In this document: positions 18,629-24,463 of the stretch, piece after piece
Layout of the letters: each line of letters opens with the position of its first letter
How positions within the stretch are numbered: the first letter of the stretch is position 1
The notes under the pieces: model-generated
The model's database searches: none
What the model saw: the letters and a program-made list of their open reading frames with translations, nothing else
What the model was told of the DNA's origin: nothing
Position numbers and translations under genes: made by a program
NCBI RefSeq assembly: GCF_000526495.1
Contig: NZ_JAGE01000002.1
Coordinates: 186,001 to 250,000, forward strand
DNA: 64,000 nt
Origin: Ruminiclostridium josui JCM 17888
GTDB lineage: Bacteria > Bacillota > Clostridia > Acetivibrionales > DSM-1351
Reading direction: 5' to 3'

Positions 18629-18659
18629 TTGACATTTACGTAGCGTAAAGGTGTATATT
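18629..18659 (+). promoter_or_regulatory. MerR-type promoter with operator palindrome
   Basis: -35 TTGACA (18629-18634) and -10 TATATT (18654-18659) are separated by 19 bp, the over-long spacing typical of MerR-activated promoters. The perfect palindrome TTTACG-TAG-CGTAAA (18635-18649) lies exactly inside the spacer. The inverted repeat can be extended outward (ACATTTACG / CGTAAAGGT) with one mismatch. It sits 25 nt upstream of the MerR gene, so autoregulation is expected. Confidence 0.9.
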
Positions 18660-18683
18660 TATCCTGTCAGGAGGTTTAAAGCT

Positions 18684-19451
18684 ATGGAATACACAATAAA
18701 AAAACTGGCTCAATTAGCCGGTGTAAGCACAAGGACACTTAGGTACTATGATGAGATAGGCATTCTCAAGCCGGCGAGAATAAATTCATCAGGATACCGT
18801 ATTTATGGTCGGAAGGAAGTAGACAGACTTCAGCACATTTTGTTTTATCGGGAACTGGGTGTGGAACTGGATAAAATAGGAGAATTTGTGAATAATCCTG
18901 CTTACGACTGTATTTCTGCTTTACAAAACCACCGAGAAAAGCTTTTAGAAAAGAAAAAGCAGCTAGAGCAGTTAATTAATACTATTGATAAAACAATAGC
19001 TGCTAATGAAGGGAGAATTAAAATGACAGATAGAGAAAAGTTTGAGGGCTTCAAGCAAAAGATTTTGGATGAAAATGACAAAAAATATGGAGAGGAAATT
19101 CGTGAAAAGTACGGGGAAGACACTGTGAATCAATCATACGATAAATTAATGGGGATGTCAGAGGAACGATATAAGGAATTTGAAAAACTTACAGAACTTG
19201 TCTTAGATACATTAAAGCAAGCCTATAAAACGGAAAATCCGGCAGGGGAGCTTGCACAGAAAGCCGCTGACCTGCATCGTCAATGGCTTAGCTTTTCCTG
19301 GCCTAGTTACAGCGGTGAAGCCCATGCTGGGCTTGCGCAAATGTATGTAGATGACGAAAGATTCAGAGCATATTACGATAAGGAACAACCGGGTATGGCA
19401 GAATTCTTGAGAGATGCAATTCTTATCTACACCGGGAAAACAGACAAATAA
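18684..19451 (+). CDS. MerR-family regulator with TipAS antibiotic-recognition domain
   Basis: DNA-binding activator (255 aa). The N-terminal winged helix-turn-helix is YTIKKLAQLAGVSTRTLRYYDEIGIL (residues 3-28), then SGYRIYG and a dimerising coiled coil (about 75-115). The C-terminal half matches the TipAS ligand domain (LAQKAADLHRQWLSF, GLAQMYVDDERFRAYYD, FLRDAILIYTG), which in Streptomyces TipA traps thiopeptide antibiotics. The start at 18684 follows a CAGGAGGT site; an in-frame GTG at 18651 lies in the promoter. An operator in its own promoter suggests autoregulation. No drug transporter is adjacent, so other targets may be elsewhere. Confidence 0.92.
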   Translation: MEYTIKKLAQLAGVSTRTLRYYDEIGILKPARINSSGYRIYGRKEVDRLQHILFYRELGVELDKIGEFVNNPAYDCISALQNHREKLLEKKKQLEQLINTIDKTIAANEGRIKMTDREKFEGFKQKILDENDKKYGEEIREKYGEDTVNQSYDKLMGMSEERYKEFEKLTELVLDTLKQAYKTENPAGELAQKAADLHRQWLSFSWPSYSGEAHAGLAQMYVDDERFRAYYDKEQPGMAEFLRDAILIYTGKTDK

Positions 19452-19456
19452 TAAAT

Positions 19457-19545
19457 AAACGGGGGTGCTGCAAAACAGAAAGTTTAATACCTGTACTTGC
19501 GTACAGGTTAAGAATATAAGAAATAGTTTTGCAACAGCCCCGTTT
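19457..19545. repeat. Foldback repeat element, short copy
   Basis: 89 nt imperfect palindrome. The outer arms AAACGGGGG... and ...CCCCGTTT pair at 18 of 20 positions, and an inner perfect 8 bp stem ACCTGTAC / GTACAGGT closes on loop TTGC. It shares the blocks AAAACAGAAAGTTT, CCTGTACTTGCGTA and GGTTAAGAATATAA with the reverse complement of the element at 23276-23421. It lies between merR and the convergent CBS gene, where it could also act as a terminator. No transposase is nearby. Confidence 0.8.
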
Positions 19546-19561
19546 AAACTACCTCAATGCT

Positions 19562-19987
19562 TTATTGAGGTTTTGAAGGCCTTGATATTTCAGTGAGAGT
19601 GTCGGCAACTTCAGTGTCATATTTAGCATCGGTTGCCACATCACCTAGTGCTACAATACCTACAAGGTTGTTATGATCAACAACGGGTACTCTTCTTATC
19701 TGGCTGTCAGCCATCATTTTGGTAACTTGTGACATTTCCATGTCAGGGCTGACAGAAGTTATACCGGTTGTCATAATTTCTCTTACAGGTGTTTGCTGTG
19801 GATTTTTACCTACAGCAATGTTTCTAACAACGATATCTCTGTCAGTTACTATACCTACAACACTTCCCTTGTCACAAACAGGGATTGATCCTACATTATG
19901 CTGCTGCATTAATTTTGCAGTGTCAACAATAGAAGCATTTGGTTCAACATAGGTTACATTTGTAGTCATTATATCTTTTACTTTCAT
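19562..19987 (-). CDS. Tandem CBS-domain protein
   Basis: 141 aa cytosolic protein made only of two CBS domains, which usually bind adenine nucleotides or similar ligands as a sensor pair. Repeat 1 is VKDIMTTNVTYVEPNASIVDTAKLMQQHNVGSIPV with GIVTDRDIVVR. Repeat 2 is VREIMTTGITSVSPDMEMSQVTKMM with RRVPVVD and GIVALGD. The start at 19987 is chosen because the AAAGGA site is at good distance; an ATG at 19996 abuts it. Its partner protein is unknown. The stop overlaps a small hairpin (19552-19570). Confidence 0.9.
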   Translation of the reverse strand: MKVKDIMTTNVTYVEPNASIVDTAKLMQQHNVGSIPVCDKGSVVGIVTDRDIVVRNIAVGKNPQQTPVREIMTTGITSVSPDMEMSQVTKMMADSQIRRVPVVDHNNLVGIVALGDVATDAKYDTEVADTLTEISRPSKPQ

Positions 19988-20059
19988 CGTAATCATCCTT
20001 TCATAATGATTTCAAAATTATTGTTTCCGAAAGGAATGATTAAAGTCGTGGAAATTTTT

Positions 20060-20986
20060 TTATTTAAAATATTTCATATTTTCATTTATATACTGTTCGG
20101 CAGTGTAGGCTGCGGAAGCTCCGTCAGCAGCAGCCGTAATAATCTGTCTCAGGTACTTTTCACGCAAATCTCCGGCTGCGAAAACACCTGGAATATTGGT
20201 TCTCATTCTATCATCTGTTATAACATAACCATCCTTGTTAAGTTCTACCTTATTCTTTACAAGTGAGGTATTGGGATTTAAACCAATTGCTACAAACAAG
20301 CCATCTACACTTATGGAATTTAGTTTTCCTGTTTTAACATTCTTAATTTTCAAGCCTTCAACACCAAATTTACCTTCAATTTCTTCTACTACAGAGTCCC
20401 ATAAAAACTCAATTTTTTTGTTGCAACATAGCTCGTTTTGAAGGAGCTTTGTGGCTCTCATTGCATCCCTTCTGTGAATTATATAAATTTTGGGACAGAA
20501 TCTTGCCAAATAAAGAGCATCCTCGGCAGCTGTATCACCGCCTCCAACAACTGCAACTGTTTTTCCGCGGAAAAAAGCACCGTCACAAACAGCACAGTAG
20601 GAGACGCCAGAACCTCTTAATTTCTCTTCATTTGGCAAGCCAAGCATTTTGGGCGATGCTCCCATACAAAGAATTATTGTTTTACTTTCAAAAGTATTGT
20701 TTTTAGTTTTTACTTTTTTAATATGTGAATCCAGATCAAGCTCAAGTACTTCATCATTTAATACTACCGTACCGAATTTTCTTGCCTGTTTTTCCATTCT
20801 CAATGCAAGGTCGGAGCCTCCTATAGGTTCTTCAAAGCCGGGGTAGTTTTCCATTACATCAGCTGTAGCCATTTGTCCGCCTGAAAACATTTTTTCAATA
20901 ACCAGGGTGTCAAGTTGTGCCCTGGAACTATAGAGAGCAGCTGTATAACCTGCCGGACCTCCGCCTATTATTATAACGTCATTCAT
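20060..20986 (-). CDS. trxB: Thioredoxin-disulfide reductase
   Basis: FAD enzyme that reduces thioredoxin with NADPH. The N-terminal FAD loop is IIGGGPAGYTAAL (residues 6-18). The redox-active pair is C131-A-V-C134 in the NADPH domain, the NADPH loop is VGGGDTA (147-153), and the C-terminal FAD motif is GVFAAGDLREK. The length, 308 aa, is normal. A TGGAGGC site precedes the ATG. Thioredoxin itself is not adjacent. Confidence 0.95.
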   Translation of the reverse strand: MNDVIIIGGGPAGYTAALYSSRAQLDTLVIEKMFSGGQMATADVMENYPGFEEPIGGSDLALRMEKQARKFGTVVLNDEVLELDLDSHIKKVKTKNNTFESKTIILCMGASPKMLGLPNEEKLRGSGVSYCAVCDGAFFRGKTVAVVGGGDTAAEDALYLARFCPKIYIIHRRDAMRATKLLQNELCCNKKIEFLWDSVVEEIEGKFGVEGLKIKNVKTGKLNSISVDGLFVAIGLNPNTSLVKNKVELNKDGYVITDDRMRTNIPGVFAAGDLREKYLRQIITAAADGASAAYTAEQYINENMKYFK

Positions 20987-21111
20987 AACTATGCCTCCAA
21001 GAATAAATGTTATATTATATGAATTCCCAAACTAAAATAAAATAAAACACAAAAAAATACTACTTTTCATATAAATAATTAGAAGTACTATTACATAGAT
21101 AGAGAGTGCAT

Positions 21112-22803
21112 ATGTTTTGTCCAAATTTTCTTTATTCTAAAGAACCAAGACCTCCACAACCTGATAATCCATCATTTGAAGAACGTCAGACTATGGCAAA
21201 ATATGCATTATACAGAACTTGCCATCTGGAAGACTATGGCAATATTTTGAATGCATTTTCACCATCTGAGAATATTACATCCATAGCCAAGCCTGGTCAC
21301 TTCAAAGGAAAAAGTGTGGGCATTATAGGCGGAGGCCTTGCAGGAATGGCTGCAGCCTTTGAACTTCGAAAGCTTGGATTTGATATTACAGTATTAGAGG
21401 CATCAGAGGAGCGGATAGGTGGTAGAGTTTATACATATTATTTTGATAGAGAAAAAAAACTTTATGGCGAACTGGGGCCTATGAGAATACCTGTCAACCA
21501 TGAGACTGTTTGGCATTATATCAATTTATTCAAGTTGAATACAAGACCATTTATACAAAGTGACCCGGGTACCTTCATATATCTTCATCAAAGAAGAGCA
21601 AGAAATGATCCTTACGGAAAAAATGTTATGAAGTACATTTATCCTACTTACGACCTTACCTCATGGGAAGCAAAAACACCGTGGCAGGAATTAGGTTATT
21701 ACGGTATAGAAGCGCCTGTACTTGAAGCACCTCCGGCTGCAAGAATTGAAGTAATTCAGGTAAAACCACGATACAGCAGGCAGTTGCTTTTCTGGGACAG
21801 CCTTAGTACTAGACAGATGTTTGAATATAAAAACCTCAGTCAGGGTGCCATTAACCTTCTCTCAAACCTATTTCCGGTAGCAGGAGAGTTACTGTATCAC
21901 AATTATGTGGATTTAGTACAGGAATACTTCCCTGTGAACTTCTGGTTTCTGTATGAAATAACAGGAGGAATGGTAAATCTACCTTTAGCATTTCATAGAT
22001 CATTTACAACTAATTCCCCTTGGGAGTATTATCCGGATATACCGGCTGAACTTCTTGGTAAAGTTACATGGAAGCAGGGAATAAAGGTAAAAGGAATATA
22101 TAAATGCCTTGAAAACGGCAAAGTAACCCTAGCATATGACAGCAAAAAACTCATGGAAACAGGGTATGAGAATTTTGATTATATTGTATGTACAGTTCCA
22201 TTCTCTGTTTTAAGAACCTTTGAAATAGCCCCAATGTTCAGCAGTTTAAAAATGCAGGCAATAAAGGAAGTAACCTATACTAACGCCCAAAAGACTCTCC
22301 TTAACTGCAACAAGAGATTCTGGGAAGAGCAAGGGATATTTGGAGGCGGTTCATATACAGATCTGCCTGTAACTGGTATATGGTATACTTCTGGTCGAGG
22401 ACAAAAAAGTACGGAAGATGTACCCGGTGTAATTGTTGGCTCCTATAATTTTAACCTGGATGCTGTAAGGTTAGGTAATATGACTGACGAGGACAGATTT
22501 GAAAAAATAAAAAGAAATGTTGAAGAAGTCCACGGATTTTCTAAGGGATATCTCAATGATATTGCTACAGACTTTAAAACACAGGTTTGGGATAATGATC
22601 CTCTTTTTAGAGGAGCATTCTGCTATTTTACACCACAGCAGAAAAAATTATTTTCATGGGCAATGACTTTGCCAGAATATGGGGATAGAGTCTACTTTGC
22701 AGGTGAACATGTATCTGCAATACACAGATGGCAGCAAGGGGCGCTCAAAAGCGGTATGGAAGCTGCAAACGCTATAGCACGTACAAATCTGTATACACGC
22801 TAA
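21112..22803 (+). CDS. Flavin amine oxidase family protein (L-amino-acid-oxidase-like)
   Basis: FAD-dependent oxidase of about 563 aa. The dinucleotide-binding motif IIGGGLAGMAAAFEL starts near residue 71 and runs to the acidic strand end VLEASEERIGGRV. The substrate-domain landmark GELGPMRIP is present, and the C-terminus has the flavin signature VYFAGEHVSAIHRWQQGALKSG. This fits the L-amino-acid oxidase / tryptophan monooxygenase branch of the monoamine oxidase superfamily. The exact amine is unknown. Oxygen-using oxidases are unexpected in a strict anaerobe, so another acceptor or an oxygen-scavenging role is possible. The start is uncertain: ATG 21112 with a weak AGAGAG site, or GTG 21106. 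Confidence 0.82.
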   Translation: MFCPNFLYSKEPRPPQPDNPSFEERQTMAKYALYRTCHLEDYGNILNAFSPSENITSIAKPGHFKGKSVGIIGGGLAGMAAAFELRKLGFDITVLEASEERIGGRVYTYYFDREKKLYGELGPMRIPVNHETVWHYINLFKLNTRPFIQSDPGTFIYLHQRRARNDPYGKNVMKYIYPTYDLTSWEAKTPWQELGYYGIEAPVLEAPPAARIEVIQVKPRYSRQLLFWDSLSTRQMFEYKNLSQGAINLLSNLFPVAGELLYHNYVDLVQEYFPVNFWFLYEITGGMVNLPLAFHRSFTTNSPWEYYPDIPAELLGKVTWKQGIKVKGIYKCLENGKVTLAYDSKKLMETGYENFDYIVCTVPFSVLRTFEIAPMFSSLKMQAIKEVTYTNAQKTLLNCNKRFWEEQGIFGGGSYTDLPVTGIWYTSGRGQKSTEDVPGVIVGSYNFNLDAVRLGNMTDEDRFEKIKRNVEEVHGFSKGYLNDIATDFKTQVWDNDPLFRGAFCYFTPQQKKLFSWAMTLPEYGDRVYFAGEHVSAIHRWQQGALKSGMEAANAIARTNLYTR

Positions 22804-22891
22804 TCACAATTACCGTTTTATAATTTAATTAGGTGGTATACTAAATAATAGATAGATTTTAAACAATATAGGATAGAAAGGAATAAATTGT

Positions 22892-23266
22892 ATGACTGAA
22901 GAACAAATGCTTGAAAAAAAGGTATGGGCTGTAGTAGGTGCAAATCAGGATCCTGAAAAGTATGGAAATAAAATATATAAGAAGTTGAAAAATAGCGGAT
23001 ATGAGGTTTATCCTGTCAACCCAGGATATGAGACTGTAGAAGGGGACAAATGTTATAAGGACTTATCTTCCCTTCCCAAAAAACCAGAAGTAATTGATAT
23101 GGTTGTTTCACCTAAAATAGGGAAGAGTGTCATAGAAGAAGCCGCAAAATTAGGTATCAAAAACATATGGCTTCAGCCCGGAACATATAATGATGAATTG
23201 TTAAAAAGAATTAACGAGCTTGAACTTGATACAGTTATGGCTTGTGTACTTGTAGCTTTGAGATAG
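22892..23266 (+). CDS. CoA-binding Rossmann-fold protein (YccU type)
   Basis: 124 aa single-domain protein with the CoA-binding fold found at the N-terminus of succinyl-CoA synthetase alpha. Recognisable parts are VWAVVGANQDPEKYGNKIYKKLKNSGYEVYPVNP, the central LSSLPKKPEVIDMVV and the end IKNIWLQPG. A GAAAGGA site is 9 nt upstream of the ATG. The cellular role of this family is not established. It is followed by the longer foldback repeat. Confidence 0.88.
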   Translation: MTEEQMLEKKVWAVVGANQDPEKYGNKIYKKLKNSGYEVYPVNPGYETVEGDKCYKDLSSLPKKPEVIDMVVSPKIGKSVIEEAAKLGIKNIWLQPGTYNDELLKRINELELDTVMACVLVALR

Positions 23267-23275
23267 AAAATAAAT

Positions 23276-23421
23276 AAAGGGAGTTGTTGTAAATTAAGTT
23301 TTATATTTCTTAACCGTACTTAAGGAGTATAAATTATATCAATGGAAGCAATCATTGATATAATTTTATACGTAAGTACAGGTGGTAAGAAAAAACTTTC
23401 TGTTTTACAACAACTCCCTTT
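23276..23421. repeat. Foldback repeat element, long copy
   Basis: 146 nt palindrome with perfect 18 bp terminal inverted repeats (AAAGGGAGTTGTTGTAAA at 23276-23293 and its complement at 23404-23421). Inside are nested complementary blocks: AAGTTTT/AAAACTT, TTTCTTA/TAAGAAA, GTACTTA/TAAGTAC and a central stem near ATTATATCAATG / CATTGATATAAT. The whole element can fold into one long hairpin. In reverse complement it matches the short copy at 19457-19545, which lacks the central stem. It lies between the CoA-binding gene and the CPBP gene. Confidence 0.85.
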
Positions 23422-23503: not shown

Positions 23504-24463
23504 ATGTCAATAAAATATCAGGATATGGCAAGAACTGGTAATACTAAACTATCGAGATTTGTAGCATCTGTTTCAGTTATACTATACTTTTATTTTTTAA
23601 TCGGAAGTTTTATAGGCTCAATACCAATAGTATACGCTTTAATCAAAAATAGAGATGCTATTGTGGATTTAACTTATTCAACAGATGTTTATGCATTTAT
23701 GGACGAATATGTAAACCCTTTTACAAACTACATATTTACCAATTTTACAATTTACTTTATGTTAGCGGGTTTATTTATAGCAATAAAGTTTATACATTAT
23801 AGGACCTTTACTTCACTTATAACAACGAAAAGAAAAATCCAGTGGAGCAGATTCTGGATAGGTTTTTTAGTTTACGGCGGGCTTTCTGCTGTCGGGGCTG
23901 TAATAGATTATTTCTTATCGCCTGAAACTTATTCAATCAGTTTTGATGCGTCAAAATTCTGGATTGCTTTGCCTTTTATTCTTATTATGACACCCTTACA
24001 GGCAGCTACAGAAGAATTTGTTTTCAGGGGATACGTAATCCAAAGCTTCGGACTTAAAATAAAAAACGGTATACTGCTTGCGGCTATATCGGGTTTTATG
24101 TTTACGCTTCCGCATCTTATGAACCCTGAAGTAACCGCCTCAAGCACAACAGGTGTTATAGATACTGTTTGCATGGTTTTGAATTATTTTGTTGTTGGAA
24201 TGATTTTTGCTATGGTTACAATAAAAACAAATTCTTTAGAGGCAGCAATAGGAGCTCATGCGGTAAACAATCTTATAGCATTTTTGCTTTTGGGGTATCC
24301 TGATAATGCACTTTCAACAAATACAGTATTTTACACATCCACTTTTAACCCGACAGGAAGTCTTATATCGGTAATAATTACAGGTTTTTTGTTTTACTTT
24401 ATTACAGGATTTTTAATAAAAGAGCCAGTACAGACCGAAGAAGACTTCAAAATTACTTGTTAA
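23504..24463 (+). CDS. CPBP-family intramembrane glutamic endopeptidase
   Basis: Membrane protein of 319 aa with about eight helices, related to CAAX prenyl proteases (ABI/CPBP, M79). Catalytic signatures are E170-E171-FVFR175, a second motif FTLPH204 and a third AH252AVNN. Members cut peptides within membranes or confer bacteriocin immunity; the substrate here is unknown. A TGGAGGG site precedes the ATG. It is followed 25 nt later by addB, but a functional link is unlikely. Confidence 0.9.
   Translation: MSIKYQDMARTGNTKLSRFVASVSVILYFYFLIGSFIGSIPIVYALIKNRDAIVDLTYSTDVYAFMDEYVNPFTNYIFTNFTIYFMLAGLFIAIKFIHYRTFTSLITTKRKIQWSRFWIGFLVYGGLSAVGAVIDYFLSPETYSISFDASKFWIALPFILIMTPLQAATEEFVFRGYVIQSFGLKIKNGILLAAISGFMFTLPHLMNPEVTASSTTGVIDTVCMVLNYFVVGMIFAMVTIKTNSLEAAIGAHAVNNLIAFLLLGYPDNALSTNTVFYTSTFNPTGSLISVIITGFLFYFITGFLIKEPVQTEEDFKITC

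Follow-up and report, generated by a model that had tools for sequence, protein, structure and literature searches.

In the genome of Ruminiclostridium josui, we identified a family of foldback elements whose complete copies hold the TwoAYGGAY RNA (Rfam RF01731) as an apical core. Support in this clade is good for the family, for its core and for its position at hairpin sites 3' of genes, and insertion of the element into a hairpin is likely, although not proved. The explanation that we regard as probable overall is that a non-autonomous foldback element carrying the TwoAYGGAY core takes over terminator hairpins, and that the two palindromes of the window (the whole 64,000-nt stretch of R. josui DNA that was analysed) are remnants of this element that have no core. 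TwoAYGGAY, an Rfam orphan since 2010, is now tied to a multi-copy foldback and to a specific seat, the presumed intrinsic terminator. If the element does insert into terminator hairpins, this would be a neat way to spread without damage to genes, and the idea that TwoAYGGAY binds CsrA would be directly testable in cultured Ruminiclostridium.

Two window palindromes and their family in R. josui

The two palindromes, of 89 nt (19457..19545) and 146 nt (23276..23421), were both recovered where the initial annotation had placed them. With the direction of complete copies taken as plus, the short copy lies on the minus strand, and its left outer arm (19456..19476) pairs with its right outer arm (19526..19546) over 21 nt at 90% complementarity. 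It starts 6 nt past the last base of a plus-strand gene with MerR HTH and TipAS domains (18651..19451), and the 3' end of a convergent CBS-domain gene (19562..19996, minus strand) is 17 nt beyond it. The long copy, on the plus strand, comprises outer and inner arms and is devoid of the ∼163-nt core. The perfect 18-bp ends and the additional inner stem ascribed to it were both found, the former as terminal inverted repeats at 23276..23293 and 23404..23421, and the latter as inner arm halves at 23331..23344 and 23353..23366 that pair over 14 bp at 100%. It starts 10 nt past the last base of a CoA-binding-domain gene (22892..23266, plus strand), and an Rce1-like gene (23504..24463, plus strand) follows downstream in tandem. 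The blocks that the two palindromes were said to share in opposite orientation were also detected by the repeat finder, which paired 19457-19485 with 23393-23421 (29 nt, 83% complementary) and 19484-19503 with 23369-23388 (20 nt, 85%).

With the 146-nt copy as the query, 60 matching pieces including the query itself were found in the R. josui genome (4.47 Mb, two contigs), the second-best match having an E-value of 6e-26. The 89-nt copy returned 11 pieces, again including itself, and a complete element at least 77. The end motif GGGCTGTYGCAAAA occurred 37 times with up to one mismatch, as compared with 0 occurrences of a reversed-pattern control, so that both palindromes have further copies and similarity above chance. 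The family occupies at least 57 distinct places, of which 9 are end-motif matches judged by eye. The proposal of a dispersed, non-coding, MITE-like foldback family with inverted ends in 3' intergenic space is therefore supported, and, like MITEs, the family has terminal inverted repeats, is present in many copies and lacks coding capacity. Overlap with an ORF of 73-102 aa was seen in six of the 45 copies examined, which we took as chance and set aside.

The pieces matched by the 146-nt copy often came in pairs, one stopping at query position 74 and the other resuming near position 68, with extra sequence in between. The 146-nt copy is itself incomplete, complete copies holding ∼163 nt more between these two query positions. 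Complete copies are ∼315 nt long and are built of outer arms (with ends like GGGGYTGTYGCAAAA), inner arms and the apical TwoAYGGAY core, which displays one or two GGA loops; the smallest forms are palindromes of 20-26 nt consisting of the ends alone. In the long window copy, the motif TGGAAGC (23343..23349, plus strand) marks the point at which complete copies hold the core, and a near repeat of TGGAAGC is found on the core flank of complete copies. The short copy had been taken for a deletion derivative of the long one; it is a deletion derivative, but both copies stem from the ∼315-nt element and neither from the other. One R. josui copy (L032) has its core turned round with respect to the inner arms, unlike the other R. 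josui copies.

Identity and conservation of the TwoAYGGAY core

The core of complete copies is the TwoAYGGAY RNA. At the three loci tried, RF01731 matched the complete copies end to end with 45.2 (L043), 42.7 and 36.7 bits, where the Rfam gathering cut-off is 43 bits. A search of the R. josui genome with RF01731 listed three matches of 51.1, 48.7 and 32.5 bits, two of them above the cut-off, and an Rfam search at the gathering score gave no match at the two window copies, both of which are without the core. A covariance model built from 16 R. josui cores had 24 matches in R. josui and detected matches in 10 of 11 genus genomes, including 47 in genome G001 and 49 in genome G010. Across the order, RF01731 was found in 29 of 58 genomes, above the cut-off in 19, with up to 19 matches per genome.

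Conservation changes in a step along the element. Among 17 complete or nearly complete R. josui copies, sequence identity was 0.86 in the core and 0.85 and 0.90 in the inner arms, and fell to 0.50 and 0.48 in the outer arms of ∼40 nt. The structure of the core is also conserved. In 28 cores from nine genus genomes and one other genome of the order, whose alignment was fitted to the covariance model and hence leans towards structure, 41 of the 51 core pairs were altered on both sides, as compared with 24.0 ± 1.8 in shuffles and 12-17 in a slid-partner control, and 94.4% of the pair cells were paired, as compared with 75.2% in shuffles and 36-44% in slid controls. In the 16 R. josui cores alone, RNAalifold showed changes on both sides in just 4 of 51 pairs. 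All 28 genus-type cores have GGA in loop 2 and 15 have it in loop 1; the two hairpins are present in the R. josui cores, of which 5 of 16 carry GGA in loop 1 and 11 do not. Outside the genus, GGA was found in both loops at 13 of 15 RF01731 loci.

The surroundings of the core vary more widely. In G001, G003, G004 and G011, palindromic arms with a different end sequence were seen by eye around the core. Outside the genus, 18 RF01731 loci were chosen, of which 3 were too short and 15 were scored; the flanks of six loci paired better than every swapped control and those of nine did not, which does not establish the foldback as a general setting of RF01731.

Several further forms were observed. G001 has a longer relative (L163-L170, L244-L263), estimated by eye at ∼430 nt, whose ends are of another kind, the TTTAACSYGTTGTGC type. 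Outside the genus, some TwoAYGGAY cores (L132, L139, L143, L153) are followed by another hairpin and a block like CTGCTTTAGACGGC, and these may be a type of RNA gene that stands alone. Single exact matches to an 18-mer from the core, possibly due to chance, were also found in records of Verrucomicrobiaceae, a Geobacter MAG and Hoeflea (L195, L198, L200).

Genomic seat and the same sites in related species

Based on simple ORF calls, 29 of 45 R. josui copies, both window copies included, lie in convergent gaps, 15 in tandem gaps and 1 in a divergent gap, and in most cases a stop codon is no more than 70 nt away on one or both sides. By a similarly rough gene call, only 3 of the 38 window gaps with a length of 20 nt or more are convergent, and the preference for convergent gaps is clear (Fisher p = 7.5e-8). 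In tandem gaps, 11 copies are sense and 4 antisense in R. josui. The corresponding counts for G001 are 4 sense and 3 antisense, with 10 of its 26 loci left unclassified. The copies have an outer stem, A- and T-tracts and a position 3' of genes, and a simple terminator scan limited to loops of 3-8 nt flagged neither window copy. The transcript-ending role that had been suggested for the family is likely. A T-box leader (RF00230, 123.9 bits) was found close to one family copy (L020:3101-3344).

We then compared 16 sites with 48 stretches from relatives by eye, namely the two window copies aligned with four related species and 14 further sites with 40 stretches. The 14 sites were drawn from 20, the six omitted having flanks that lay apart, a single matching flank or element-sized gaps in relatives; some of these six were read separately. 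Several relatives with element-sized gaps were also left out within the 14 sites, and plain hairpins are therefore over-represented in a tally that is no estimate of frequency: 34 stretches hold plain hairpins, 10 hold family members and two are without a clear hairpin (both at L052, where neither relative read has one), the remaining two being L024, a plain terminator that bears the stub of an arm, and an ambiguous case (L038 in G002). At 13 of the 16 sites, a plain hairpin occupies the place of the R. josui element in one or more related species, and the element thus stands in place of the plain hairpin of relatives at most of the compared sites. At the short-copy site, all four relatives have a plain hairpin, the same one in three of them, flanked by similar A-/T-rich tracts. 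At the long-copy site, another plain hairpin is found in three relatives, and G005 has a short family member.

At none of the 13 sites did the stem of the relative occur in R. josui within 150 nt beside the element, where three scattered matches with two mismatches formed no stem, and 12 of the 13 R. josui flanks have no other hairpin, the exception being a small one to the right of the short copy that is also present in relatives. At L048, the element sits within the host stem GTGCAG...CTGCAC. Bases of the host stem also appear to be kept on both sides of the element at L020 and L028, whereas at L051 they appear on a single side. Host-stem strings, which were picked by eye, matched their own sites with a summed score of 95 as compared with 83.0 ± 5.7 for swapped sites (P = 0.028), a result driven by these four sites; many swapped pairs scored at least as well as the other nine. 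Most of the 13 sites do not preserve the host stem.

At six sites (the two window copies, L035, L028, L056 and L026), the same plain hairpin, unrelated to the family, was seen by eye in three or four relatives, which favours a gain in the R. josui lineage. Gene trees of five species placed G000 as basal for one gene and G002 as basal for the other, and parsimony alone therefore leaves gain versus loss unsettled. In a comparison of G001 with G010 for clean empty sites, three shorter G010 sites have family stubs and no plain terminators, as read by eye from poor alignments. The element in G001 and G010 also has other ends, so that replacement of the presumed terminators is shown in a single clade.

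At orthologous sites, the interior of the element was inverted in L029 relative to G006 (L270), in L043 relative to G002 (L280) and in L048 relative to G005 (L238), where the G005 copy is without the core. The orientation was kept in L029 relative to G005, in L031 relative to G005 and in L032 relative to G007 and G005. The interior behaves as if flipping between its arms, which ill suits a fixed strand-specific role. The G007 orthologue of the L029 site (L269) contains an inserted transposase-like coding sequence, IS3-like by eye.

A sequence of events can be proposed in which the plain hairpins of relatives would be intrinsic terminators and new copies would enter such hairpins, splitting or replacing the tip. 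Transcription from either side would still end at the outer stem and its A- and T-tracts, and later deletions from the centre outward would give the 146-nt, 89-nt and ∼20-60-nt forms. More tentatively, the core at the 3' end of neighbouring mRNAs may be kept for putative CsrA binding. A bolder version, which we regard as unlikely, is a terminator-homing palindrome that would target terminator hairpins, swap their tip and keep termination, and would thereby give dozens of mRNAs a putative CsrA-binding RNA at their 3' ends, a dispersed CsrA sponge that leaves the host unharmed.

Candidate movers, rival explanations and known systems

ORFs were listed at L083 and L091, two places with a pair of inverted end motifs spaced 1.6-1.7 kb from each other. 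At L083:1973-3587, an IS256/Mutator-type (Transposase_mut) IS lies inside the outer arm of a foldback copy. As we read them, the ends of this IS are its own, they fall within the foldback arm and they are accompanied by an 8-bp target duplication (CGCAAAAC); its transposase was therefore rejected as a partner and the IS regarded as a passenger. At L091:4972-6702, a second Transposase_mut gene is found between two motifs that resemble the family ends, with 1 and 2 mismatches and a spacing of 1.7 kb, and this ORF has inner inverted ends of its own, unlike those of the family, with no obvious duplication. Its transposase may be either a passenger or a partner. The ends of the element itself presumably resemble those of the IS6 family (GGNNCTGTTGCAAA). 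No target-site duplication around the foldback, one of the marks that the initial annotation proposed to look for, was visible by eye at the 16 compared sites. Y1_Tnp had 0 matches in the R. josui genome, and matches, some of them fragments, in 10 of the 11 genus genomes.

These observations bear on how the family spread. It is possible, at a modest probability, that the family is an ordinary MITE that a DDE transposase inserts preferentially into AT-rich 3' intergenic DNA, and that the adjoining old terminators decayed because the element itself terminates. The IS-like inverted ends common to the copies, the varying presence and absence between species, the nested insertions and the L091 ORF between its end motifs are all in line with this, and the presumed likeness of the ends to those of the IS6 family is a further lead. 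On the other hand, target-site duplications were not seen at the compared sites, the L091 ORF with its differing inner ends may be a passenger, the ends around the same core differ between lineages, and at 13 of 16 sites it is the plain hairpin of relatives that is missing, with the element in its place. Alternatively, the family could consist of ancient 3' hairpins inherited vertically, in which case relatives would have collapsed elements as their plain hairpins and nothing would be moving at present. Sites common to two or more species, graded deletion forms down to ∼20 nt, the stubs at the three G010 sites and the ambiguous tree root agree with such a history, but the plain-hairpin stems at most sites are unrelated to the family ends, which recognised deletion forms keep, and six sites share an unrelated hairpin among three or four relatives (by eye). 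We therefore think vertical descent improbable. A REP-like element moved by a RAYT (Y1 transposase), also raised by the initial annotation, would account for a palindromic, intergenic repeat 3' of genes at which duplications are not seen, but with 0 Y1_Tnp matches in R. josui against at least 77 element pieces, and with elements far longer than REPs, this origin is highly improbable.

A further possibility, compatible with takeover of terminator hairpins by a foldback, is that the elements form a dispersed family of putative CsrA-binding RNAs whose spread was selected for CsrA titration. CsrA prefers GGA in hairpin loops, and such a role would fit the GGA in loop 2 of all 28 cores and in both loops at 13 of 15 loci outside the genus, as well as the compensatory stems. 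Arguing against it, loop 1 is degenerate in most R. josui cores, many copies have no core, and there is no association with the presence of csrA. A csrA gene was found in R. josui, but csrA occurs in 25 of 29 genomes with RF01731 matches and likewise in 25 of 29 without, or in 28 of 32 versus 22 of 26 when G002, G006 and G007 (positive by model R1 only) are moved; co-occurrence thus gave no signal. In the accessible text of PMC4333381, CsrA binding is proposed for TwoAYGGAY and a match to the CsrA motif is published. CsrA binding by the core is thus a hypothesis with mixed evidence, and selection for titration appears doubtful. Weighing these readings, we retain takeover of terminator hairpins by a non-autonomous foldback as the probable explanation.

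Among known repeats, REP/BIME sequences with RAYT are likewise palindromic and 3' intergenic, but they are shorter and have their own end motif, whereas the present family is much longer, has another end motif and has no Y1 transposase in R. josui. CsrB/RsmZ-type RNAs that sequester CsrA have many GGA-loop hairpins in one RNA. The family resembles them in hairpins exposing GGA loops, a likeness partly drawn from the accessible portion of PMC4333381, but its hairpins, putative sites of CsrA binding, number at most two per copy over many loci.

TwoAYGGAY itself corresponds to the core of complete copies, with two hairpins, GGA-type loops and, for some R. josui copies, scores above the gathering cut-off, although the RF01731 RNA is lacking in both window copies. 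It was listed by Weinberg in 2010 as probably an RNA and not cis-regulatory (PMC2864571, in the part available), and its structure is treated in the accessible sections of PMC7657543 and PMC11701678. Within the portions available of PMC2864571, PMC4333381, PMC7657543 and PMC11701678, it appears as a structured RNA or candidate sRNA, and repeats or a foldback at terminators are not mentioned. The literature matches listed, which do not extend to subscription journals, include neither an earlier description of the family in this genus nor terminator-targeting elements of this kind.

SPRITE, RUP and BOX of Streptococcus pneumoniae, which we compared by description only, are also small interspersed repeats. 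In the accessible text of a review of prokaryotic MITEs (PMC10969869), SPRITE is a terminator-like repeat and a possible T-box motif is mentioned for BOX, but neither terminator replacement nor such an Rfam RNA is mentioned for these elements. The family is like MITEs in being short, non-coding, intergenic and present in many copies with inverted ends and internal deletion forms. It differs from them in having no visible target-site duplication or established parent IS, in a core that is more conserved than its ends, and in standing in place of plain hairpins.
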